A stretch of 34,939 nt of DNA from Planctomycetota bacterium (GTDB lineage Bacteria > Planctomycetota > Phycisphaerae > Tepidisphaerales > Tepidisphaeraceae), in contig JBCDKH010000015.1 of assembly GCA_038746835.1 (NCBI GenBank), forward strand, positions 1 to 34,939, given 5' to 3'. The notes under the pieces are model-generated. The model was not told the DNA's origin and searched no databases. It saw nothing but the letters and a program-made list of their open reading frames with translations. Both the position numbers and the translations under genes were made by a program. Of the stretch, positions 457 through 16,561 are shown one piece after another; the stretch's first letter is position 1, and the number at the start of each line of letters is the position of its first letter.

Positions 457-1866
457 ATGTCGCGTATCAACACGAACGTGAACTCGCTGGTCGCACAGCG
501 CGTTCTCTCGCAGAACAACGCTTCGCTCAACAAGAGCCTCGAGCGTTTGTCGACAGGTCTGAAGATCAACAGCGGTGCCGACAACCCGGCCGGCCTGATT
601 GCATCGGAGAACCTGCGTGCCGAGAAGACCGGCATCACCGCCGCCCTGAACAACGCCGAGCGTGCCGGCAACATCATCGCCACGGCCGAAGGTGGCCTGG
701 CGGAAGTTGGCAACCTGCTCAACGAGCTTCAGGGTCTGGTCGTCGAGACCGCCAACTCCGGCGGCCTCAGCGCCGAAGAGCTTGAGGCCAACCAGCTTCA
801 GGTCGACGGCATTCTCAACACCATCAACCGCCTCGCCGGCAGCGTCAACTTCCAGGGCCAGAAGCTCCTGGACGGCACCTACGGTTACGAGACGAGCGGC
901 ACCAACCTGTCGTCCGTCAACAACCTGCGTGTCAACAGCGCTCGCCTGCCCGACGGTTCGACCCAGGCTGTGACGGTTCAGGTGACGGGCTCGGCCCAGG
1001 TCGCCAGCATCGCCACCGCCGCCGGTGCCACCCTCAGCGCCGCTGTGACCATTGAGGTCGCCGGCAACAAGGGCACCGAGCAGCTCAGCTTCCTCTCGAG
1101 TGCTGCGATCAGCAGCGTCGCCGCCGGCATCAACGCCCTCAAGGACGTCACCGGCGTCGAGGCCACGGTCAGCGGCACGAGCCTCCGTATCGATTCGACC
1201 GGCTTCGGTTCGGATCAGTTCGTGAAGGTCACCGCCATTTCCGGCGGCGGCTTCAACGGCGGTACGGGCAGCGACGAGGGTCAGGACGCCACGGTCAGCG
1301 TCAACGGTGGCGAAGCCAGCGTCGACGGCCTTTCCGTCAAGTACCGCAGCAGCAACCTCGACGTCGAGTTCGACCTCATCGAGGGTGCCAACTACAACGG
1401 TTCGACTGTCGCCAAGAGCTTCAGCGTCGTTGCTGGTGGTGCGGACTTCTCGCTGGGTTCGAAGGTCTCCGAGACCGAGAAGGCCTCGATCGGCATCAAT
1501 TCGGTGTCGACAGGCAGCCTCGGCCTCGACGGCTCGTTCCTGTCGAGCATTGCCTCGGGTGGTGCCAACAGCCTCACCAGCGGCAACTTCACCACCGCTC
1601 AGGAAGCCCTGTCCGAGTCGATCAAGCAGGTCAGCCAGGCCCGCGGTCGTCTGGGCAGCTTCCAGAAGTTCACCATCGGCAGCACCGTCAACCAGCTCGG
1701 TGTCGCCTTTGAGAACGCTTCGGCCGCCGAGAGCGCCATCCGCGACGCGGACTTCGCCCTCGAGACTGCCGAACTGACCCGCAGCCAGATCCTGGCTCAG
1801 GCCAGCACGACGGTTCTCGCCCAGGCGAACCAGCAGCCCCAGCGAGTCCTCTCGCTGCTCGGCTAA
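457..1866 (+). CDS. fliC: Flagellin
   Basis: This is the structural subunit of the flagellar filament, exported by the flagellar type III apparatus and polymerised outside the cell. The 469-residue product shows the classical layout. An N-terminal D0/D1 coiled-coil region covers residues 1-140 (it begins MSRINTNVNSLVAQ, with RLSTGLKINSGADNPAG near 30-46 and FQGQKLLDG at 132-140). A variable middle contains a hook-IN-like segment at about 195-260. The C-terminal D1/D0 helices at about 375-469 end in VLSLLG. There are no cysteines, as is usual for flagellins. The ATG is supported by ggaagga at 440-446, 10 nt upstream. A strong terminator follows, so the gene is probably expressed alone at high level. 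The next gene downstream is a divergent flagellin relative. Confidence 0.97.
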   Translation: MSRINTNVNSLVAQRVLSQNNASLNKSLERLSTGLKINSGADNPAGLIASENLRAEKTGITAALNNAERAGNIIATAEGGLAEVGNLLNELQGLVVETANSGGLSAEELEANQLQVDGILNTINRLAGSVNFQGQKLLDGTYGYETSGTNLSSVNNLRVNSARLPDGSTQAVTVQVTGSAQVASIATAAGATLSAAVTIEVAGNKGTEQLSFLSSAAISSVAAGINALKDVTGVEATVSGTSLRIDSTGFGSDQFVKVTAISGGGFNGGTGSDEGQDATVSVNGGEASVDGLSVKYRSSNLDVEFDLIEGANYNGSTVAKSFSVVAGGADFSLGSKVSETEKASIGINSVSTGSLGLDGSFLSSIASGGANSLTSGNFTTAQEALSESIKQVSQARGRLGSFQKFTIGSTVNQLGVAFENASAAESAIRDADFALETAELTRSQILAQASTTVLAQANQQPQRVLSLLG

Positions 1867-1915: not shown

Positions 1916-1949
1916 AAGGGCGTCCCGCAATGCGGGACGTCCTTTTTTT
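1916..1949 (+). terminator. Rho-independent terminator of flagellin
   Basis: An 8-bp GC stem cgtcccgc/gcgggacg with loop aat is extended outward by weaker pairs and followed by a run of seven T. It sits about 50 nt after the flagellin stop. It should separate flagellin transcription from the downstream flagellin-like gene. Confidence 0.9.
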
Positions 1950-2052: not shown

Positions 2053-2078
2053 ACCGCGACGTATGCGGAGGCAGGTGG

Positions 2079-3458
2079 ATGGAACCCGCCAAGACATCCA
2101 AAGCGACTGATTCGCAACGCAAGGGGCAACCCGACCAAGCAGTCACCGAGTCTCTCAGGCAGACTCACGTCGCCCGTGAAGAATATCGCCAGGTATTGGC
2201 AACGCTCGCCGGGATTGGAACGATCCTTGTCAAAGGGGCGTCGCTTGCGGGGAGCGTTCTGTGCGAATCGAATTGCTGCAGGTCGTGTGAGTCGTGTAGT
2301 CGTGAGCCGACGTGTGACGGCATCGTCCGCGCGTTGGAGCGCGTTGATCAGCTGCTGGCACGATGCACGGTCGCCGGCACGCCCGCCTTCGATGGGCAGC
2401 GGGATCATCGCTGTCGGCTCGGTAACCGACAGGACGAATGCACCTCTTCCATGCTGCCGGGCGCGGTCACGCCGAACCAACTGACCATCCGACCCATCAC
2501 GGTCGCGCGTGAGCAAACACTTGGCAAACGCTCGTTTCACGTCCGCGTCCACGAAGCGCCCACGAGTGCTTCCTGCACGATTCGCCCACGCTCGTCAGCC
2601 ATCGCCGACAAGGACGCGCAGCCAGAGGCGAACTGCCGGTGCATGATCACACCTGGCAAGGAAACGCGTCTTCGTGCCTGCTCCCTCAATCAGGGAGCCA
2701 ACCTCTTTCTTCCGCCGTATCCAGTCAAGCGAACCGAACTGGCCGCCATGCGACGCGCCCTGGCACCGCTCGGCCTTCGCGTAACCGTCCGAGGTCAGAC
2801 GCTGCTGATTCGGGCCACCTCCGAAGGCTCCGCGAACAATTTCAAACTCAAACTGCTCAACGGCATCGACCGCCACTACAGCCTTGAAGCAGCCGTCGTC
2901 GGCCGCGATGCCTCCATTCGCATCGACGGGCGACCTGTTTCGGCGGTCGGGGCTGTCGCCCATCTGCGTCGCGACGACGACCACCTCGCCGTCGAGATTG
3001 GCGGACAGCTCGACGCAGCTGGCAGCGAACTGCTGATTCACGTCGACGGCGGTTGCGTCCTGCCGATCATCCGCCAGACCCATCGCGACGGAAAGACCGT
3101 CTGGCTGCCCGAAGACTGGCCCACGAACAAACGGACCGGACGCATGGTCCGCTCCGACGGCTGCCGCGTCAGCATCGGCCTGCCCGAACTCTCGACACGA
3201 ACGCTCGGCCTGCCACGACTGACGCTGGCGGCACTCATCCGATCCACCAACGCCGGCTACATGCCGCGTCGCAGCAGTGAGGCGATCCTCGCCGCGATGC
3301 GGCAGGTGCTGGACGTTCAGGCGCGGCTCGAGCACGCGTGCAAGCTCATCGACGCCGCCCTGATCGCCGCCTCGGCAGATTGGCCGACCATGCGGGCCGA
3401 CAAAGCTCAGGACGAAGGTTGCGACCCGACGCAGCAGAACCGACGATCCGCCGCGTGA
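2079..3458 (+). CDS. Divergent cysteine-rich flagellin-like protein lacking D0 helices
   Basis: This 459-residue protein has no obvious name but lines up with the flagellin just upstream. Residues 232-257 (GLRVTVRG...) match flagellin 233-258 (GVEATVSG...). GRDASIRIDG (275-284) matches GQDATVSVNG at the same residue numbers. VSIGLPELSTRTLG (364-377) matches ASIGINSVSTGSLG (343-356). FDGQ at 104-107 matches FQGQ at 132-135. Relative to flagellin it lacks roughly 30 N-terminal and 45 C-terminal residues, which are the D0 helices needed for export and polymerisation. It has 17 cysteines (six between residues 62 and 79), while the flagellin has none. The ATG is supported by ggagg at 2067-2071. 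The stop overlaps the next gene start by 4 nt (GTGA), implying coupling. The role is unknown; a flagellin-binding regulator, a decoy or a decaying paralogue are all possible. Homology is inferred by eye. Confidence 0.75.
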   Translation: MEPAKTSKATDSQRKGQPDQAVTESLRQTHVAREEYRQVLATLAGIGTILVKGASLAGSVLCESNCCRSCESCSREPTCDGIVRALERVDQLLARCTVAGTPAFDGQRDHRCRLGNRQDECTSSMLPGAVTPNQLTIRPITVAREQTLGKRSFHVRVHEAPTSASCTIRPRSSAIADKDAQPEANCRCMITPGKETRLRACSLNQGANLFLPPYPVKRTELAAMRRALAPLGLRVTVRGQTLLIRATSEGSANNFKLKLLNGIDRHYSLEAAVVGRDASIRIDGRPVSAVGAVAHLRRDDDHLAVEIGGQLDAAGSELLIHVDGGCVLPIIRQTHRDGKTVWLPEDWPTNKRTGRMVRSDGCRVSIGLPELSTRTLGLPRLTLAALIRSTNAGYMPRRSSEAILAAMRQVLDVQARLEHACKLIDAALIAASADWPTMRADKAQDEGCDPTQQNRRSAA

Positions 3459-4810
3459 CGCAGGCTTCGTCCGACGCAACCACGCCGACGGTCGAGGCAA
3501 CGCCACGCCAGCGCGTCGCCTGGATGCTCTACGACTGGGCCAACAGCGGCTACGGACTCGTCTGGGGCTCCATCTTCCCGCAGGTCTTCATCCGCTCGCT
3601 TCTGCCCGAGCAGTCGACGTGGGAACCGCGCATCGTCGACGGCAAGACCGAGCCCGCGACGGGCCTGGTCGTCATTGGCATCGACGTTCCCGGCAGCAGC
3701 GTCTTTGCCGTTTTCGTCGCAATGGTCGCGTTCCTGACAGTGCTGAGCGCGCCCGTCCTCGGAGCCCTGGCCGACGCACGCGGCTGGCAGAAGCGGCTCT
3801 TCATCACCACCGCCACGGCCGGGTCGTGCGTCGCGATGCTGCAGGTGCTCGTGCCCGTCGACTCCGCCTACGGCTGGCAGCTGGCGATGGGCATCTACTG
3901 CGTGAGCCTCTATTTCTTCGGCCTGTCGATCGCGTTCTACAACGCGTTCCTGCCCGTTCTTGCCGGATCGATGGGTGAGAACAAGCTGGGCGGATGGGGC
4001 TTTGCCGTCGGCTACATCGGCGGGGCGATCATGCTGATCATCGCCGGCCTGGTGTTGCCGGCCGTGTTGCCGGACTTTGAGAATCGCTTCAATCTCGGCC
4101 TGGGTCTGAGTGGGCTGTGGTGGCTGCTCTTCAGCCTGCCCGCCTTCTTCCTGCTGCCCAAGGTGCCGCCCGCCAGCGACGCGCACCTTCGGCCCAAAGG
4201 CATCTTCGGCCCGTTCAAGCAGGTCGCCGGGACCCTCAGGCACCTGCGCAGCTACCGGATGCTCTTCCTGTTCCTGCTGGCGTTCCTGGTCTACATCAAC
4301 GGCGTCGAGTCGGTCATCAACCTCGCCAGCGCGTTCGCAAGCGACGTCCTGATGATGAGCGTCGGCGAGCTGACCGTCATGTACCTCGTCGTCCAGTTCG
4401 TCGCCTTCGCCGGTGCCGCGACCTGCGGCTACGCGGCGGAGCGCTTCGGCAACAAGCCCGTCATCACCACGACGCTGCTCGCCTGGTGCGTCGGCGTCGG
4501 GCTGACCTACTTCGTCCAGACGCCGACGCAATTCACGCTGCTGGGCGTGCTGATCGGCCTGGTGCTGGGCGGCGTGCAGTCGTCCAGCCGCAACCTCATG
4601 AGCAAGCTCGCCCCGAGCCACATCCGCAACGAGGCCTTCGGCTTCTACGCCATCGGCACCAAGGCGATGAGCATCTTCGGCCCGCTCCTCTTCGCCGGCG
4701 TCGGCATTCTCGCCGGGCCACGCTTCGCTGTCTTCGCCGTCCTGCCCTTCCTCATCGTCGGCCTGATCCTGCTGCAGTTCGTTCGCGAACCAAAGCCAGC
4801 AGTCGCGTAG
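3455..4810 (+). CDS. MFS transporter, UMF1 (Atg22-like) family
   Basis: This is a predicted inner-membrane transporter of the major facilitator superfamily, 451 residues, with about 12 hydrophobic helices. The N-terminal segment RVAWMLYDWANSGYGLV matches the characteristic YDWANS signature of the UMF1/Atg22-like family. Members are annotated as efflux permeases, and the substrate cannot be read from sequence. I chose the GTG at 3455, which overlaps the preceding stop as GTGA, because an upstream in-frame start (3338) would bury more than 110 nt in the previous gene and add an arginine-rich, non-membrane extension. Coupling to the flagellin-like gene is a strange pairing and may only reflect operon compactness. 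Confidence 0.9.
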   Translation: MTQASSDATTPTVEATPRQRVAWMLYDWANSGYGLVWGSIFPQVFIRSLLPEQSTWEPRIVDGKTEPATGLVVIGIDVPGSSVFAVFVAMVAFLTVLSAPVLGALADARGWQKRLFITTATAGSCVAMLQVLVPVDSAYGWQLAMGIYCVSLYFFGLSIAFYNAFLPVLAGSMGENKLGGWGFAVGYIGGAIMLIIAGLVLPAVLPDFENRFNLGLGLSGLWWLLFSLPAFFLLPKVPPASDAHLRPKGIFGPFKQVAGTLRHLRSYRMLFLFLLAFLVYINGVESVINLASAFASDVLMMSVGELTVMYLVVQFVAFAGAATCGYAAERFGNKPVITTTLLAWCVGVGLTYFVQTPTQFTLLGVLIGLVLGGVQSSSRNLMSKLAPSHIRNEAFGFYAIGTKAMSIFGPLLFAGVGILAGPRFAVFAVLPFLIVGLILLQFVREPKPAVA

Positions 4811-8571: not shown

Positions 8572-11500
8572 TCAGCCTCCAGCTTCAAGACCGGAGCCAG
8601 CGGCTTCGCTCCACGCCCCGCTGAGCCGCTCCGCCTGCTCAATGACCAGCTCCACCGCCTTCTCCTGCCCCTCCGGCGGATACTTGTACTTCCGCAGCAA
8701 TCGCTTAATGAGGAGCCGCATCTTCGCCCGCACGCTCTCGCGGACCTGCCAGTCGACCGTCGTGCTTCGCCGCAACTGATCCGTCAGCTCCACGGCCAGC
8801 TTCTTGAGCGTCTGGTTCCCCATCTCCCGCAGCACGTCCGGTCGCTCGGCTAGGGCGTCGTAGAACGCGATCTCATCAGCATTCAGCCCGAGCTCTTCAT
8901 CACGCTTCACGGCCTCGATGAAGTCCTTCGCCATCGCGATGAGTTCTTCGACAATCTTGCCCGACTCGATCGCGCGGTTGTTGTACTTGCGCAGCGTCTC
9001 GGCCAACCGGTCGCCGTACTTGCTTTCGCGGACGACGTTGTTTCGCGACCGCCCGCGGATTTCATCCTTGATCAGCCGCTCTAAAAGCTCGACGGCCAGG
9101 TTCTTCGCCGGCATCTGCCGAACGTCTTCGAGGAACTCATCACTGAGCAGCCCGATGTTCGGCCGCTCCAAACCTGCCATCGCAAAGATGTCGTCCACGC
9201 CGTCGCTCACGACCGCGTTATCGAGGATGCCTTTCAGCATCGCCGACTTGTCCGTGCCACCACGCTTCGGCCCCTCGACACCGTGCTTCGCGAGGATGCC
9301 GCGGATTGCCGCGAAGAAGGCGATCTCCGTCCGCATCGCCGCTGCCTCGTCGAGCGTCGCGCACAAGCTGAACGCCTTCATCACCGACGCCATCACGTCG
9401 AGGAACCGCCGCTTGCCGTCGTCCAGGCTCAGGATGTGGTTTGTCACCTTCGGCAGAAGCGGCAGCGGGGCGGTCTCGAACCCGCCGTAGTCGACGCCGG
9501 GCGAGTCGGGGCTCTTCTCCCGCATCATGTCCCGCAGGACGCCCATCTTCTCCTTGAGAATCCGCAGCCCGTCCTCCGCCCGCACCGTCGGCTGACCTCT
9601 ACCGGGCGACTCCGTGTACGTCTTGAGCGCCTTCTTCAGATCGACCGCGATCCCGATGTAGTCGACCACCAGCCCGCCGGCTTTCTCGCGGAACACGCGG
9701 TTGACCCGCGCGATCGCCTGCATGAGGGCGTGCCCCTTCATCGGCTTGTCCACGTACATCGTGTGGCAGCACGGCACATCGAACCCCGTCAGCCACATGT
9801 CCCGCACGATCACCAGCTCCAACTCGTCGCGTGGGTCCTTGAACCGCTTCGCCAGCCGCTGGCGCTGGGCCTTGCTGTACTGGTGATGTCGCAGCTCCGG
9901 CCGGTCGGTCGCCGTGCCAGTCATCACGACGCGAATCTTCCCGTCCTCGTGGTTCCACGTCCCGTCCTCGCGGCGAGTGCCCGCCATCTCCGGCCGACGC
10001 TTCACGATCTCGTCGTAGAGCGCAACGCAGATGTCCCGGCTCATCGTGACGATCATCGCCTTCCCGCCGAAGTCCGGCTGCTCGTCCGTCGAAAGCTGCG
10101 ACCGCATCGCCTCCTTCCGCCGGTCGAAGTGCGCCAGCAGATCGTCAGCGATCGCTTCCAGCCGCGGCTGCGCCCCGACGAGCTTGGCCAGCTGCGCCCA
10201 CTTGCCCTTGGTCTTCTCCCGGCCCTCGACCTCCTCGCCTGCGACGACCTCGTCCACCTCCGCGTTGAGCTGGTCGATGTCCTCGCTGTTGAGGTCCAGC
10301 TTCGCCCGCCGGCTCTCGTAGTAGATCTGCACCGTCGCCCCGTCCTCCACGGCGTCGGCGATGTCGTACACGCTCACGTACTCCCCGAACACGCCTCGCG
10401 TGTCCTTGTCCTCGAACGCGATCGGCGTCCCCGTGAACCCGATGAACGACGCTTTCGGCAGCGCGTCCCGCAAATGCTTCGCGTAGCCGTAGACGTACCG
10501 GCCGGTCTTCTTGTCGAGGGTCGGCTTGATCCCGTACTGGCTGCGGTGGGCCTCGTCGCTGATGACGACGATGTTGCTCCGCCGGCTCAGCGCCGGGTGC
10601 GTGTCTTCCCCGTCCATCGGCGAAAACTTCTGCACCGTCGTAAACACGATCCCGCCGCTCGCCCGGCCGTCGAGGTATTCGCGCAGCTGCTCCCGGCTGT
10701 CCGCCTGCTCCGGGGCCTCCCGCAAGAGCGACTTCGCCGCGCTGAACTGCTGGTGCAGCTGCCCGTCGAGGTCATTGCGGTCGGTGACGACCACCAGCGT
10801 CGGATTGTTCATCGCCGGCTGCTGCAACAGCTTCCCGGCGTACATCGCCATCGAAATGCTCTTGCCCGACCCCTGCGTGTGCCAGAACACGCCGCCTTTC
10901 CCGTCGTGCCGTGTCGCCTTGATCGTCTCATCGACCGCCGCCCGCACACCGTGGAACTGGTGGTAGCCCGCAATCTTCTTCACGATTTCTTCATCACCCT
11001 CAAACAGGATGAAGTGCCGCAGGTAGTCCAGCAGCAGGTCCGGCCGGAAGAAGCCGCGGACGACCCGTTCCAGCTCCATCTCGACCGTCGGCTTGTCACT
11101 CTCGGATGCCACCGTCCGCCACGGCAAGAACCACTCGGGCGTCGCGGTGAGCGAGCCGACGCGGGCGGTGATGGCGTCGCTGACGACGAGGGCGGCATTG
11201 GTCGCGAACAGGTCGCCGATCTCGTCCTTGTACGTCTGCAGCTGCCGGTACGCCGCCCACACGTCGGCCGACGCGTCGGCCGGGTTCTTCAGCTCGATCA
11301 CGGCGATCGGCAGCCCGTTCAGATAACACACCACGTCCGGTCGCCGCCCGTCCTTCGTCCCCGCGACGGCTAACTGATTCACCACTAGCCAGTCATTCCC
11401 ACCCCCGGCCTTCACGTCATCGAACGCCACCAGCCGCGCCACGTCCTCGACCTTCGCCCCTGACGCATCCGTGTATGCGACCGGCACCCCGTCGATCATC

Positions 11501-11769
11501 TTCCGGTGAAAGGCCGCGTTCGCCCTCGCCAGGTCGGGATGCTCCCGCGTCGTCGCCGCCCGCACGACCTCCTCGACGGCCTCGGCCGGCAGCTGCGGAT
11601 TGAGCCGCCGCACCGCCGCCGCCAGCCGCCCGGCCAGCACCACGGCCCGCCCGTCCACCCGCTCGTCGGGTGCCACGTCCGGGGCCAGCTTCGCCCCGTG
11701 CAGGTAGGCCCACCCGGCCTCCTGAAACCAGGCGATCGCCTGCTGCTCGACAGCATCTTCGTTAATCAT
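8572..11769 (-). CDS. hsdR: Type I restriction enzyme, R (motor/nuclease) subunit
   Basis: The 1065-residue HsdR subunit cleaves DNA after ATP-driven translocation when the HsdM/HsdS complex finds an unmethylated site. The N-terminal PD-(D/E)xK nuclease is visible as RPD145...E159-L-K161. The superfamily 2 motor has Walker A GSGKS at 300-304, DEAH at 405-408 and GFTGTPI. The C-terminal helical part holds TVDWQVRESV at about 1004-1013. I chose the ATG at 11769 (MINEDAVEQQAIAW), preceded by ggggaag. A longer frame upstream is arginine/proline-rich and overlaps the FRG gene. It overlaps the end of the FRG gene by 8 nt and is last in the operon. All key residues are intact. Confidence 0.97.
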   Translation of the reverse strand: MINEDAVEQQAIAWFQEAGWAYLHGAKLAPDVAPDERVDGRAVVLAGRLAAAVRRLNPQLPAEAVEEVVRAATTREHPDLARANAAFHRKMIDGVPVAYTDASGAKVEDVARLVAFDDVKAGGGNDWLVVNQLAVAGTKDGRRPDVVCYLNGLPIAVIELKNPADASADVWAAYRQLQTYKDEIGDLFATNAALVVSDAITARVGSLTATPEWFLPWRTVASESDKPTVEMELERVVRGFFRPDLLLDYLRHFILFEGDEEIVKKIAGYHQFHGVRAAVDETIKATRHDGKGGVFWHTQGSGKSISMAMYAGKLLQQPAMNNPTLVVVTDRNDLDGQLHQQFSAAKSLLREAPEQADSREQLREYLDGRASGGIVFTTVQKFSPMDGEDTHPALSRRSNIVVISDEAHRSQYGIKPTLDKKTGRYVYGYAKHLRDALPKASFIGFTGTPIAFEDKDTRGVFGEYVSVYDIADAVEDGATVQIYYESRRAKLDLNSEDIDQLNAEVDEVVAGEEVEGREKTKGKWAQLAKLVGAQPRLEAIADDLLAHFDRRKEAMRSQLSTDEQPDFGGKAMIVTMSRDICVALYDEIVKRRPEMAGTRREDGTWNHEDGKIRVVMTGTATDRPELRHHQYSKAQRQRLAKRFKDPRDELELVIVRDMWLTGFDVPCCHTMYVDKPMKGHALMQAIARVNRVFREKAGGLVVDYIGIAVDLKKALKTYTESPGRGQPTVRAEDGLRILKEKMGVLRDMMREKSPDSPGVDYGGFETAPLPLLPKVTNHILSLDDGKRRFLDVMASVMKAFSLCATLDEAAAMRTEIAFFAAIRGILAKHGVEGPKRGGTDKSAMLKGILDNAVVSDGVDDIFAMAGLERPNIGLLSDEFLEDVRQMPAKNLAVELLERLIKDEIRGRSRNNVVRESKYGDRLAETLRKYNNRAIESGKIVEELIAMAKDFIEAVKRDEELGLNADEIAFYDALAERPDVLREMGNQTLKKLAVELTDQLRRSTTVDWQVRESVRAKMRLLIKRLLRKYKYPPEGQEKAVELVIEQAERLSGAWSEAAGSGLEAGG

Positions 11770-12997
11770 CTTCCCCTGCCTTCCGAACTTCTTCGGCTGC
11801 GGCGGCGACCGCCGCATGTGCGGCATCCTTTGCCTGCTCATCCGGGTACTTCGTTTTCAACAATTGTCGACGAAGCCACGTTCTTAAACGCGCGAGCTGC
11901 GATTCACGGATGAACCAATCAACGCCGGCCACTTCATCTACGAAGTTCTCGAACTCCTGAGCTAGCGAACGTGCTTCTGAGGCCGTCAAGGTCCCTTGCT
12001 CACCTTGTGCGTTGAAAATCGCTTCAGCAGCGACCGCCGCGATACCGGAGGCGGACTTAGTGATGGTGATTTGAGCTTTGACCTTGTGAGTTGCCGAACC
12101 GCTCACCTCTTCGACCTGCTGCCGGGACATCCATTCACGCGTTAGCTCGTTGCAATGCTTCGCCGCTCCAATGAGGTCAGGAAACAGACTCGCGTTGTGA
12201 ATGTTCATCTTTCGAAGCCATTGCAGGCACCGTTGTCTCACGTCCGCATCGTTGGGGATGTGGACCTTCCGCAGGTACTTCGCCACCTCGCTCGGCTCGT
12301 TCACGTCGATGTCGGAGTCTGCAAGAGCGCGAAGCAGCGAAGATTCGAGTGTCTCGCCGTACGGCGCGATTGTGAACAAGCCCGCCTGATTGACAAGCCG
12401 CCCGTGATCGTCTTTGGACGGCTCGATGATCCGTGGCCACTTCGAGTCAAAGTCGAGATCACTGATGAACTCGCTGTTGATGATGTAGACCGCGCGGCTG
12501 CTTGCGACGGGCATCTTGTTGCCTTCTTGACCCCACTGAGGGTCGTCCGTCCCGACGAACGCGAAGAAAAGGGCGACGAACGGTGACCGTGTCCAGTCGA
12601 GAAGTGGTGTCGCAAGCTCGTGGTGCTGACCGACCGCCCAAAGCTCGACATCCTCTGCCTCCTCGCCGTCATCGGTGAACTCAAGAATGCTGTTGTCCGG
12701 GACCCGACCGCGGATCGCGAGCCGGAACGCTTGGAGGTGACGATCTGCGAACTTCTTGTCAATCGCGCCCATCTGGAAGCGATCAAGTGTCGGCTCAAGG
12801 AACCACTTGTAGTGGTGCTGGCCGCGGAACGCGTACGACTCGACATTGTCGTTCTCGATGTAGTGGTCGACGACGCGGTCGAAGTCTCGCCAACTCTCGA
12901 TTCGTGACGACGGAATGAGTCCATCAACGGTCTTGTCGAACACGTCGACGTCGGGCCACAACGGCAGCTTCTTCCAGTACGGCGTCTCTTCACTCAC
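11762..12997 (-). CDS. FRG-domain protein with HsdR-like C-terminal module
   Basis: A 411-residue protein encoded between hsdS and hsdR. The FRG domain is seen as YAFRGQ (residues 55-60) and the downstream block ELWAVGQHHELATPLLDWTR followed by SPFVALFFAF, both hallmarks of the family, whose biochemical role is not settled. Such genes recur in type I restriction operons. The C-terminal end (VDWFIRESQLARLRTWLRRQ from residue 359, then LLKTKYPDE) aligns without gaps to HsdR residues from about 1005 (VDWQVRES...KYKYPPE), with 15 of 29 positions identical. The start GTG at 12997 overlaps the hsdS stop as GTGA, and the end overlaps hsdR by 8 nt. This suggests tight co-translation and a role inside, or regulating, the restriction complex. 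Docking is inference. Confidence 0.9.
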   Translation of the reverse strand: MSEETPYWKKLPLWPDVDVFDKTVDGLIPSSRIESWRDFDRVVDHYIENDNVESYAFRGQHHYKWFLEPTLDRFQMGAIDKKFADRHLQAFRLAIRGRVPDNSILEFTDDGEEAEDVELWAVGQHHELATPLLDWTRSPFVALFFAFVGTDDPQWGQEGNKMPVASSRAVYIINSEFISDLDFDSKWPRIIEPSKDDHGRLVNQAGLFTIAPYGETLESSLLRALADSDIDVNEPSEVAKYLRKVHIPNDADVRQRCLQWLRKMNIHNASLFPDLIGAAKHCNELTREWMSRQQVEEVSGSATHKVKAQITITKSASGIAAVAAEAIFNAQGEQGTLTASEARSLAQEFENFVDEVAGVDWFIRESQLARLRTWLRRQLLKTKYPDEQAKDAAHAAVAAAAEEVRKAGEDD

Positions 12998-14295
12998 GCG
13001 TTACTCCCCACAGTTGGTGCGCCAAGCTCACCGCCGAGCAGCTTCGGCAGCAGGGCGTCGCGGAGGGCGGCGAGGGTGCGGGATTCTTGCCGGTTTTGCT
13101 CCATGCGTTCGAGCAGCGGTGCCACGACGGCGTGGAATGCGTCGAGGATTGCGGGATCGGTAGGAACGACGGCTTCGATGGCTTCGATTTGCTCCGGCTT
13201 GACGGCGGGATAGGCGGCCCCGTCCGCCAACTGCCCCAGCTTCTCTGACATCTCCGGGCGTGTCATCAGGACGTAGAGAAACGAGTACGGCACCTTCGGC
13301 GACATGACAGCAAAGCCGGTCGAAGCAATGCGGTCTGCTGGTGGGTCGAGGGCGAGGAAGTACGCCCCGCGGTCTGGCCGCACAGTTGAGATGGCGACGT
13401 CGCCGTGTCGTAGGCGACGCCGTGCTCTGCCGGGTGCGTCGTCCCGGTCGTAACGCGGCATCGACTCGATGTCGCCGCGATTGGCGGCCGAAATCTCGAT
13501 GTATTCCAAGCTGTCGAGTTCGTCCTTCTTTCGCAGCGTTGAAGCGTTGATGTCGCAGAGGTCGCCAATCGTCTTCACCGTCCAGCCCTGCGGGATGTCG
13601 CCGAGGGGGGAGGGCTCGAAGGGGGCGGCGTTGGTGTGGGGGTGGTCCGGGGCGGGGTCGAAGTCGACGAACCAGCTTTGGAACAGGCCGCGGGCCAGCG
13701 ACTCCAGCGTCCGGCTCATCCGGCGGTTCAACGCGATCTTGGCGTCCAGTGACCCCAACACCCCCGCAATCGCCCGCTGCTCCGACAGCGGGGGGAGCAC
13801 GAACGGCACCCGCTCCATGATGCCAGTATTCAGGTTCGGCATCGTCGCCCCGACCGCATGGTTGACGATCCATGCACGCACGGCCGGATGTCCGAGGTAG
13901 AAGGACGCGAAGTCGGGATCAATGACACCTTCACCAAACCGCACCTTCAAGCAACCCGTGCCGCACAGCCAGCCTTCCTGACCTTCGCGGACAATCGCCC
14001 GTCGCTCAACGTCCCCGCGGCGGCTGTAGATGATGTCGCCGACTTGCACGCGATGCTTGGACAGTCGCTCCGCGTCTTCTTCCGTGATGCGTTTGATGTC
14101 TTGCTCGATTAGTCGGTTGTCGCCGATGTTGACCGGCATGATCGACGGGATGCCGTCATCGACGTAATCGTGAGCGTGCAACTGACTACCGAACGGGCCG
14201 GTCTGGATGCTTCCACCGCCGCGTTTGACGATCTCGCCAAGCGTCGGTGTCTCCCAGTGATCCGGTAGCTCCGCAAACAGCGGACTAAACCCCAT
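12994..14295 (-). CDS. hsdS: Type I restriction-modification specificity subunit
   Basis: The 433-residue HsdS subunit recognises the bipartite DNA target for methylation and cleavage. It has two target-recognition domains (about residues 10-165 and 230-375), each followed by a conserved helical region. The central one is LPPLSEQRAIAGVLGSLDAK at about 167-186. The distal one includes LRDALLPKLLGGEL near the C-terminus. The two-domain layout is complete, so a normal bipartite site is expected, but its sequence cannot be deduced. The ATG at 14295 overlaps the hsdM end by 11 nt, and its stop overlaps the FRG gene by 4 nt. Confidence 0.96.
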   Translation of the reverse strand: MGFSPLFAELPDHWETPTLGEIVKRGGGSIQTGPFGSQLHAHDYVDDGIPSIMPVNIGDNRLIEQDIKRITEEDAERLSKHRVQVGDIIYSRRGDVERRAIVREGQEGWLCGTGCLKVRFGEGVIDPDFASFYLGHPAVRAWIVNHAVGATMPNLNTGIMERVPFVLPPLSEQRAIAGVLGSLDAKIALNRRMSRTLESLARGLFQSWFVDFDPAPDHPHTNAAPFEPSPLGDIPQGWTVKTIGDLCDINASTLRKKDELDSLEYIEISAANRGDIESMPRYDRDDAPGRARRRLRHGDVAISTVRPDRGAYFLALDPPADRIASTGFAVMSPKVPYSFLYVLMTRPEMSEKLGQLADGAAYPAVKPEQIEAIEAVVPTDPAILDAFHAVVAPLLERMEQNRQESRTLAALRDALLPKLLGGELGAPTVGSNA

Positions 14296-16033
14296 ACCCC
14301 ACCCCCTTCAGGTTCTCGCGGATCGTCGTCTCCAGCGTGTCCGACTCTTTGAACTGCTCGGCCAGCTCGGCGGTCAGGCGTTGCATCTTCGCGTCGAACG
14401 GCTCGCCGTCGTCCTCGGCCGCGGCGGCGCCGACGTAGCGGCCGGGGGTCAGCACGTGGCCGTGGGCGGCGATCTCGGCCAGCGTCGCCGACTTGCAGAA
14501 GCCGGGGACGTCGGCGTAGGCGGCGGCGGTCTCGGTGCCACCGCATTCTTGCGGTGTTTCGGGGTCGGTATTGGAGCACTGCAAGGATGCAGTGGCACCG
14601 GAGGTGGGCGTCGGGAGGCCCTGCCAGGCGTGGAAGGTTCCGGCGAGTTTGGCGATGTCGTCGGCGGTGAAGTCGCGGAGGACGCGGTCTTTCATGTAGC
14701 CGACGTCGCGGGCGTCGAGGAAGAGAACCTCGCCGGCGCGGTCGCGTTTTCCATCGCGTGCGGATTTGTCTTTCGTCAGGAACCAGATGCAGGCAGGGAT
14801 TTGGGTGTTCGTGAAGAGCTGGCCGGGCAGGGCGACCATGCACTCGACGAGGTCGGCCTCGACCAGGCCGCGGCGGATGTCGCCCTCGCCGCCGCTGGTG
14901 CCTCTCATGCTCCCGTTGGCCAGCAGCAGGGCCATGCTGCCGGTGGGGGCCAGGTGGTGGAGCATGTGCTGGACCCAGGCGAAGTTGGCGTTGCCCTTGG
15001 GCGGGGTGCCGTGTTTCCAGCGGGCGTCGCCGGCGAGCTTGGCGTCCCACCAGTCGCTGACGTTGAACGGCGGGTTGGCCATCACGAAGTCGGCCCGCAG
15101 GTCGGGGTGCTGGTCCTGCGTGAAGCTGTTGGCCCAGCTTTTGCCGAAGTTGTAGTCGATGCCGCGGATGGCCATGTTCATCGCGGCCAGCCGCCAGGTG
15201 GTGGGGTTGGACTCCTGGCCGTAGACGCTGATGCCCCCCACCTTGCCGTGCGTCTCCTCTGCGTACTTCTCCTCGACGTGCTTCTCGATCTCCACGAAGA
15301 AGCCGCCGGAGCCCATGGCCGGGTCGTAGACGCGGCCGTGGTAGGGGCGGAGCATCTCGACGATGAGGCCGACGATGGATTTGGGGGTGAAGTACTGGCC
15401 GCCCTTCTTGCCCTCGGCGAGGGCGAACTGGCCCAGAAAATACTCGTACACGTGGCCGAGGATGTCCTTGGGTTGGAGCTTATCGTGGGTGAAGGGGATG
15501 CTGGCGATCAGATCGATCAGGCCGCGGAGGTTGTCGGGGTCGAGCTGGAGGCGGGCGTAGGTGTCGCGGGCCAGCACGTTGGCCAGGGCGTCGTTCTCCT
15601 TCTCGACGGCGGCGAGGGCGTCGTCGATCAGCAGGGCCGTCGACTTGATGGTGTAGCTCTCGGTCTTGCCGTTCTTGACCTCGACCGTCGTCTGCGGCGG
15701 GAGCTTGGCCCAGCTTTGCAGGTTCTGCCAACGGGCCAGCGGGGGAACCCAGAAGGTGTTTTGGCTGGTGTAGTAGTCGCGGTCCTCAAGCTCTGCGTGA
15801 AGGTCGTCGTCCGACGCGTCCGGGTAGTGCAGGTCGCTGTCCGGGTTCTGCAGGTCGGCCTTGATCTGCTGTCGGCGGGCGTCGAAGGCGTCGCTCACGT
15901 ACTTCAAGAAGATCAGCCCCAGCACCGCGTGCTTGTACTGCGCCGCATCAAGGTTGTTCCTCAATTTGTCGGCCGCGGCCCAGAGCTTGGCGTCGAGGTC
16001 GCGGAGGAACTGGTGTTCGGACACATCGGGCAT
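14285..16033 (-). CDS. hsdM: Type I DNA methyltransferase (M) subunit
   Basis: HsdM methylates adenine using S-adenosylmethionine and forms the M2S core with HsdS. The 582-residue product has the helical N-terminal domain (QFLRDLDAKLWAAADKLR...), SAM-binding motif I DPAMGSGGF (237-245) and catalytic NPPF (320-323), so the enzyme should be active. The ATG at 16033 (MPDVSEHQF) is preceded by taggggc. A longer frame upstream adds 73 non-family residues and is rejected. Residues about 479-500, just before the conserved DVPGFCKSATLAEI segment, are encoded by a paired-hairpin repeat element and look like an in-frame insertion in a surface loop. It is first gene of the hsdM-hsdS-FRG-hsdR operon. Confidence 0.97.
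   Translation of the reverse strand: MPDVSEHQFLRDLDAKLWAAADKLRNNLDAAQYKHAVLGLIFLKYVSDAFDARRQQIKADLQNPDSDLHYPDASDDDLHAELEDRDYYTSQNTFWVPPLARWQNLQSWAKLPPQTTVEVKNGKTESYTIKSTALLIDDALAAVEKENDALANVLARDTYARLQLDPDNLRGLIDLIASIPFTHDKLQPKDILGHVYEYFLGQFALAEGKKGGQYFTPKSIVGLIVEMLRPYHGRVYDPAMGSGGFFVEIEKHVEEKYAEETHGKVGGISVYGQESNPTTWRLAAMNMAIRGIDYNFGKSWANSFTQDQHPDLRADFVMANPPFNVSDWWDAKLAGDARWKHGTPPKGNANFAWVQHMLHHLAPTGSMALLLANGSMRGTSGGEGDIRRGLVEADLVECMVALPGQLFTNTQIPACIWFLTKDKSARDGKRDRAGEVLFLDARDVGYMKDRVLRDFTADDIAKLAGTFHAWQGLPTPTSGATASLQCSNTDPETPQECGGTETAAAYADVPGFCKSATLAEIAAHGHVLTPGRYVGAAAAEDDGEPFDAKMQRLTAELAEQFKESDTLETTIRENLKGVGYGV
14534..14599. repeat. Paired-hairpin repeat element, copy inside hsdM
   Basis: Two 23-bp arms (14534-14556 and 14577-14599) are inverted repeats of each other at 20 of 23 positions, separated by 20 nt. 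Each arm is itself a hairpin with a CAC...GTG stem of 18 nt. The layout, the terminal GTGsCAC motif and the G-rich spacer (tcggggtcggtattgg) match the element at 16245-16312, but the stem sequences differ. The 66 nt keep the hsdM frame open and encode about 22 residues. Confidence 0.8.
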
Positions 16034-16244
16034 CGCCCCTACGTATACCGGCCCCTCGACATGGGTACCAGTCGACGGCGACCGTCGATCGGGGACGATC
16101 GGGGCGTCGATCGGTTCCGCGGCAGCGACAAAAAGCGCTCGGCCGACCTGCGGCATCGTCCCCACCCCGTCCCTCACCCCCACCCTTCCCAGCTCCGGCC
16201 GGTCTACGTCGTCGCGACGTGAGGCCGCAGCATCATGCTTAAGT

Positions 16245-16312
16245 CGTGGCACGATCTTCAGATCGTGTCGGGGTTGGGATTTGGGGACGCACGATCTGAA
16301 GATCGTGCCACG
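16245..16312. repeat. Paired-hairpin repeat element, intergenic copy
   Basis: Two 23-bp arms (16245-16267 and 16290-16312) are perfect inverted repeats around a 22-nt G-rich spacer (tcggggttgggatttgg...). Each arm folds by itself: cacgatct/agatcgtg. The structure therefore can form either two small hairpins or one long cruciform. It is the sister of the copy inside hsdM at 14534-14599. Confidence 0.85.
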
Positions 16313-16351
16313 GGGAGCGTCGCGGGCGGGATGCCCCTCAACGTCTTGAGG

Positions 16352-16561
16352 GTGCCCGGGGAAGTCTTCAGGACACCTGGGGAAGTTGGAAACATACCCG
16401 GGAAGGTTTCCAATATGGCTGGGGAAGTTGGAAATCTATGTTTGGGGCTTCCAAATATACCCGGGGAAGTTAGAAACACGGCTGGAGAAGTTCCAAACAT
16501 ATCCCGGGAAGTTGGAAAGATGGCTTGGAAAGTTCCAAACATACCCGGGAGAGTTCTAAAC
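16352..16561. repeat. 21-bp tandem repeat array (about ten units)
   Basis: Ten consecutive 21-nt units follow a loose consensus atacccggggaagttggaaa plus one base. Many contain cccggg and a ggaa or ttcc core whose orientation alternates, so neighbouring units can pair (for example ttggaaac/gtttccaa). The array is less GC-rich than its surroundings. Because the period is a multiple of three, frames stay open on both strands as heptad repeats (plus strand like EVGNIPG). No ribosome-binding site or recognisable protein is attached, so I treat it as a minisatellite rather than a gene. Confidence 0.85.

Follow-up and report, generated by a model that had tools for sequence, protein, structure and literature searches.

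The DNA analysed here (the window, 34,939 nucleotides) forms the start of contig C15 in a 3.8-Mb Phycisphaerae genome that encodes both FliW and FliS. A flagellin gene, a flagellin-like gene whose product lacks the D0 ends (hereafter the D0-less gene) and a transporter gene follow one another on the plus strand, with these features:

457-1866, plus strand: flagellin of 469 aa with intact D0-D1-D2-D1-D0 order and no cysteine (Flagellin_N and Flagellin_C above the Pfam cut-off)
1916-1944, plus strand: intrinsic terminator 3' of the flagellin gene (stem and T-run; RNA fold z -4.6)
2035-2052, no strand: 18-bp perfect palindrome GCGGACAACGTTGTCCGC, just 5' of the D0-less gene
2067-2071, plus strand: Shine-Dalgarno-like GGAGG in the sequence, 7 nt 5' of the ATG
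2079-3458, plus strand: probable D0-less flagellin paralogue, 459 aa, 17 cysteines (intact ORF, profile matches, frame scores)
2262-2315, plus strand: cysteine cluster C-x3-CC-x2-C-x2-C-x5-C, residues 62-79
2769-3059, plus strand: best-conserved part, a D2-type beta region, residues 231-327 (HMM domain hit; AF2)
3267-3377, plus strand: D1-C-like helix, residues 397-433, with D0-C absent beyond (HMM alignment and AF2)
3455-4810, plus strand: ATG22-like MFS transporter with a GTG start (PF11700, E=2.3e-58)

The flagellin shared at most 66% identity with flagellins of other genera in its family, and a counterpart was found in 23 of the 26 family genomes. The palindrome is the only perfect copy in the whole genome and is a possible regulator site. 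At the other end of the D0-less gene, its TGA stop overlaps the GTG start of the MFS gene by 4 bases (GTGA), and this GTG is the sole start 5' of the first transmembrane segment. Farther along the window, hsdR, hsdS and hsdM of a Type I restriction-modification system lie at 8575-16435 on the minus strand.

Relation of the D0-less protein to flagellin

Flagellin is built on a conserved D0/D1 core, of which D0 lines the filament channel, and D2 is its variable surface part. The first-pass annotation had described the product of 2079-3458 as a flagellin relative, and this was borne out at the profile level. Pairwise BLAST against the window flagellin gave E=0.02 at 22% identity. A profile of 31 family flagellins matched the D0-less protein with E=2.3e-7 (Z=1), while the best of 2000 shuffles reached 9e-4. 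When a flagellin profile was run over all ORFs of the window, the D0-less ORF (E=1.2e-4) was the sole match besides flagellin itself, the next one having E=2.3. The HMM-HMM comparison proposed in the first-pass annotation did not return an absence of relationship: hhalign aligned residues 229-423 with residues 230-402 of flagellin at E=5.7e-4, with a probability of only 29%. Both the profile and hhalign place the homology in the D1/D2 region of flagellin. The alignment is collinear, running from a D1-N helix through D2 to a D1-C helix with no large shift, and the glycine positions invariant in flagellin D2 are retained. The motif pair singled out earlier, GRDASIRIDG in the D0-less protein and GQDATVSVNG in flagellin, indeed occupies residues 275-284 in both proteins.

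Searches of Pfam (up to E=10), NCBIfam and PHROGs with the D0-less protein yielded no matches, no sequence model of the FliD or FlgL families matched it, and a PDB sequence search returned only noise. The empty curated and PDB searches indicate that the relation to flagellin is remote. Compared with the flagellin of the same locus (FliC/Hag; PF00669, PF00700), the D0-less protein shares the D1-D2-D1 order, the D2 residue numbering and an adjacent gene position, but it lacks D0 and a Pfam flagellin match and carries cysteines. The empty family searches, together with two long antisense ORFs that overlap the gene, would also fit a long ORF that arose by chance in GC-rich DNA, or an unrelated orphan gene that happens to resemble flagellin. 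This explanation is very improbable given the frame scores throughout the gene, the collinear profile match, the outcome of the shuffle test and the position right after flagellin. Homology of the D0-less protein to flagellin is hence highly likely.

Structure prediction agreed with this in outline. Without an alignment, AF2 produced a flagellin-like order of helices and strands at low confidence (pLDDT 40). With an alignment that included flagellins, pLDDT was 59 overall and 80-90 around residues 190-260 (D2). The latter model resembles flagellins with Z up to 13.8, a score that is partly circular because of the flagellin rows in the alignment; for the same model, built with flagellin rows, the predicted beta domain matches FliD D2-D3 as well as flagellin folds.

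Coding status and age of the D0-less gene

The frame at 2079-3458 contains no stop in 459 codons, against about 7 expected from the dinucleotide content, and neither the premature stops nor the frameshifts of a pseudogene were found. In every 150-nt block it outscored the other two forward frames, and in nearly all blocks the three antisense frames too. Codon and residue usage, on the other hand, is far weaker than in real genes and worst over the first 200 residues, where codon adaptation was 0.53 as against 0.60-0.86 in the window genes; the remainder reached a normal-low 0.64. In residue composition the protein is halfway between real proteins and what random codons would encode. The earlier claim of a live gene, made from the palindrome and the ribosome-binding site, holds for the open, gene-like frame with its own GGAGG and for the presence of the single-copy palindrome; codon usage is poor.

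Comparison with flagellin by codon position gave an indication of age. Identity at third positions was at the level of chance (0.332 observed, 0.353 expected), and where residues were identical, codon sharing did not exceed expectation. First and second positions were well above chance, a value inflated by the alignment having been made on protein. Saturated third positions with retained protein similarity point to an old duplication that was under protein-level constraint for much of its time, and they rule out a recent flagellin duplicate. The D0-less gene is therefore not newly duplicated, and it is not a simple pseudogene either.

No orthologue was found in 61 relatives, in 397 genomes of the class or in a contig set of 84,980 species genomes; the weak matches among the class genomes carried stops or were other genes. 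Nor was a positional orthologue present 3' of flagellin in 19 loci of the family, several of which have a different MFS gene there, or at the MFS neighbourhoods of four genomes (G016, G011, G017 and G024). The MFS gene of the window belongs to the same family as that of G016 and runs in the same direction as flagellin; in G016 (L076:5013-7867), the ATG22-like MFS gene is convergent to flagellin at a distance of about 60 bases, and no D0-less gene lies between them. The terminal branch of the window protein in the tree measured about 10 changes per site.

The first-pass annotation had listed a decaying paralogue among its options, and such a reading is a real possibility. The ORF would then be the translated leader of a functionless duplicate, kept free of stops by coupling to the MFS gene through GTGA. 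The overlap and the lack of any other MFS start ahead of the first transmembrane segment favour it, as do codon usage near background, the residue composition, a cysteine content near random expectation, the weakly coding appearance of the N-terminal half, the absence of orthologues in the genomes searched and the loss of the D0 ends, which belong to the best-conserved regions of flagellin. It accounts less well for similarity that has outlasted the saturation of synonymous sites and is concentrated in D2 and D1-C, or for the conserved glycines of D2. Our main reading is that the window gene is a very old flagellin paralogue that is translated, evolves fast and has lost D0 at both ends, to which we give slightly less than even odds (about 0.47). 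The odds are about the same for a translated, D0-less paralogue outside the filament and for a decaying one kept open by its coupling to the transporter.

Missing D0, retained D2 and the cysteines

The absence of both D0 ends, noted in the first-pass annotation, was confirmed: no D0 sequence occurs in any frame of 1867-2078, between flagellin and the D0-less gene, and the frame stops before D0-C. A frameshifted remnant of an ordinary flagellin can be rejected, since no frame around the gene contains D0 sequence. The protein accordingly lacks what marks a filament subunit, namely Flagellin_N and Flagellin_C including the D0 helices at both ends. In Campylobacter jejuni, FliS requires the last residues and an intact C-terminus of flagellin, and FliW binds its N-terminal part (PMC5466977; PMC8306008). 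Without D0-N the window protein would be missing the export and polymerisation region of flagellin, and without D0-C it would be missing the FliS site. With both ends missing it would not form part of the filament and would probably remain inside the cell; neither handling by FliS nor filament building is to be expected, so that a role outside the filament is the simplest reading. The retained part, the D2-type beta domain, could make the protein a soluble mimic of flagellin that does not assemble and would contact FliW, flagellin or a new partner, the choice among these being a guess. The most natural mechanism would be that of a decoy for, or a sensor of, FliW or flagellin.

Flagellin homologues outside the filament have been described. 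Campylobacter FlaC is a secreted, non-structural flagellin that keeps D0-D1 and is largely without D2-D3 (PMC5466977), and filaments assemble without YvzB, a flagellin homologue of Bacillus subtilis (PMC8929632). The window protein would resemble FlaC in being a flagellin paralogue outside the filament, but it keeps the opposite part of the molecule and so is not of the FlaC type. Like YvzB, it is a second flagellin homologue. No precedent for D0-less flagellin paralogues was found in the searched literature.

The count of 17 cysteines, as against none in the window flagellin, was correct. The cluster at residues 62-79 is missing from the other D0-less Phycisphaerae proteins, which have 0-1 cysteines each and in nearly all cases none, and cysteine makes up 3.7% of the window protein compared with 3.0% expected for random codons at the local G+C. 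Cysteine richness is thus peculiar to the window gene and near the level of unconstrained codons. The suggestion of a redox-sensitive regulator did not stand up to these figures, and a cysteine-based redox switch was rejected, as the cysteines are not common to the other D0-less proteins.

The highest 19-residue hydropathy of the protein, 1.71, falls just before the cysteine cluster (residues 39-62). This stretch bears on another explanation, in which the protein has a flagellin-type beta domain but is non-structural and either secreted or exposed at the envelope, with a role comparable to that of FlaC; it would use another export signal or the hydrophobic helix as an anchor, and its cysteine cluster would form disulphides outside the cell. 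Known non-structural flagellins lend it some precedent (PMC5466977). A transmembrane helix at residues 39-62 was nevertheless rejected, because 21% of shuffles reach the same hydropathy and a lysine lies at the centre; by eye no lipobox or typical signal peptide was seen, and FlaC, unlike the window protein, retains D0. Secretion or exposure at the envelope is therefore improbable.

D0-less flagellins in other Phycisphaerae

The first-pass annotation had suggested looking for D0-less flagellins beside fliC in Phycisphaerae. Across 80 flagellin neighbourhoods and several hundred genomes of the class, the following were found:

L127:5925-6569, plus strand: D2-only ORF, 214 aa (PF07196), in UWPOB_PLANC1
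L190:3254-4204, plus strand: short flagellin-like ORF, 317 codons, with degenerate but recognisable D0 ends, in G220
L192:5226-6479, minus strand: D0-less member, family f4
L191:3734-4780, minus strand: D0-less member, family f4
L268:1857-3152, minus strand: D0-less member, family f4
L270:1202-2236, minus strand: D0-less member, family f4
L266:3738-4661, plus strand: D0-less member, family f4
L227:6667-7965, plus strand: D0-less member, family f4

D0-less proteins therefore do exist, and one is encoded directly beside flagellin genes, but none of them is an orthologue of the window gene. The D2-only ORF directly follows a tandem of flagellin genes with a terminator-like hairpin. The 317-codon frame is likewise directly 3' of tandem flagellins and is apparently a partly decayed intermediate in D0 loss. 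Two flagellin genes in the survey (L043:4603-6157 and L123:3779-5651) appeared to be split over two frames in their C-terminal part, which may reflect a pseudogene or an assembly error.

In five genomes of family f4 (G108, G212, G414, G431 and G103, from five genera), the D0-less protein is encoded beside the same PfkB-type kinase gene or no more than 2 kb away from it; the gene of a sixth member (G331) is located elsewhere. In these proteins a low-complexity N-terminus replaces D0, and D1-N and D2 are kept. Their genes have no stops and encode 0-1 cysteines, with strong constraint at first and second codon positions and third positions near chance. Five of the members (all but that of G431, which was found later) formed one clade with 100/99 support in the tree, which is limited by long branches. 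A profile of all six, run against 163 genomes of f4, returned no further member above flagellins among the matches listed.

The window protein resembles this kinase-linked group in lacking D0, keeping D2 and not being a filament-type flagellin, and differs in its cysteine cluster and in its position beside flagellin, since the f4 genes mostly lie beside the sugar-kinase gene. The two had no direct profile match (hhalign E=0.18), and kinship was rejected on this value and on the neighbours of the window gene, flagellin and the ATG22-like MFS gene. With no direct match between them, D0 seems to have been lost several separate times. D0-less flagellins elsewhere in the class retain D2 too, under protein-level constraint, and their genes show purifying selection as well as normal codon bias (three have a GC3 of 0.86-0.92), a recurrence that speaks against mere decay of the window gene.

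The more interesting result is that D0-less paralogues recur in Phycisphaerae, with one group conserved beside a kinase gene. We tentatively propose that the class has repeatedly made D0-less, D2-keeping, non-filament proteins whose role is regulatory or unrelated to motility, of which the window gene and the kinase-linked family would be independent instances. The loss of D0 and retention of D2, more than once in one class, is the inverse of the usual constraint on flagellin, and it suggests a separate function for the surface domain outside the filament. Concrete loci are now available for asking whether flagellin-like decoys regulate the handling of flagellin.
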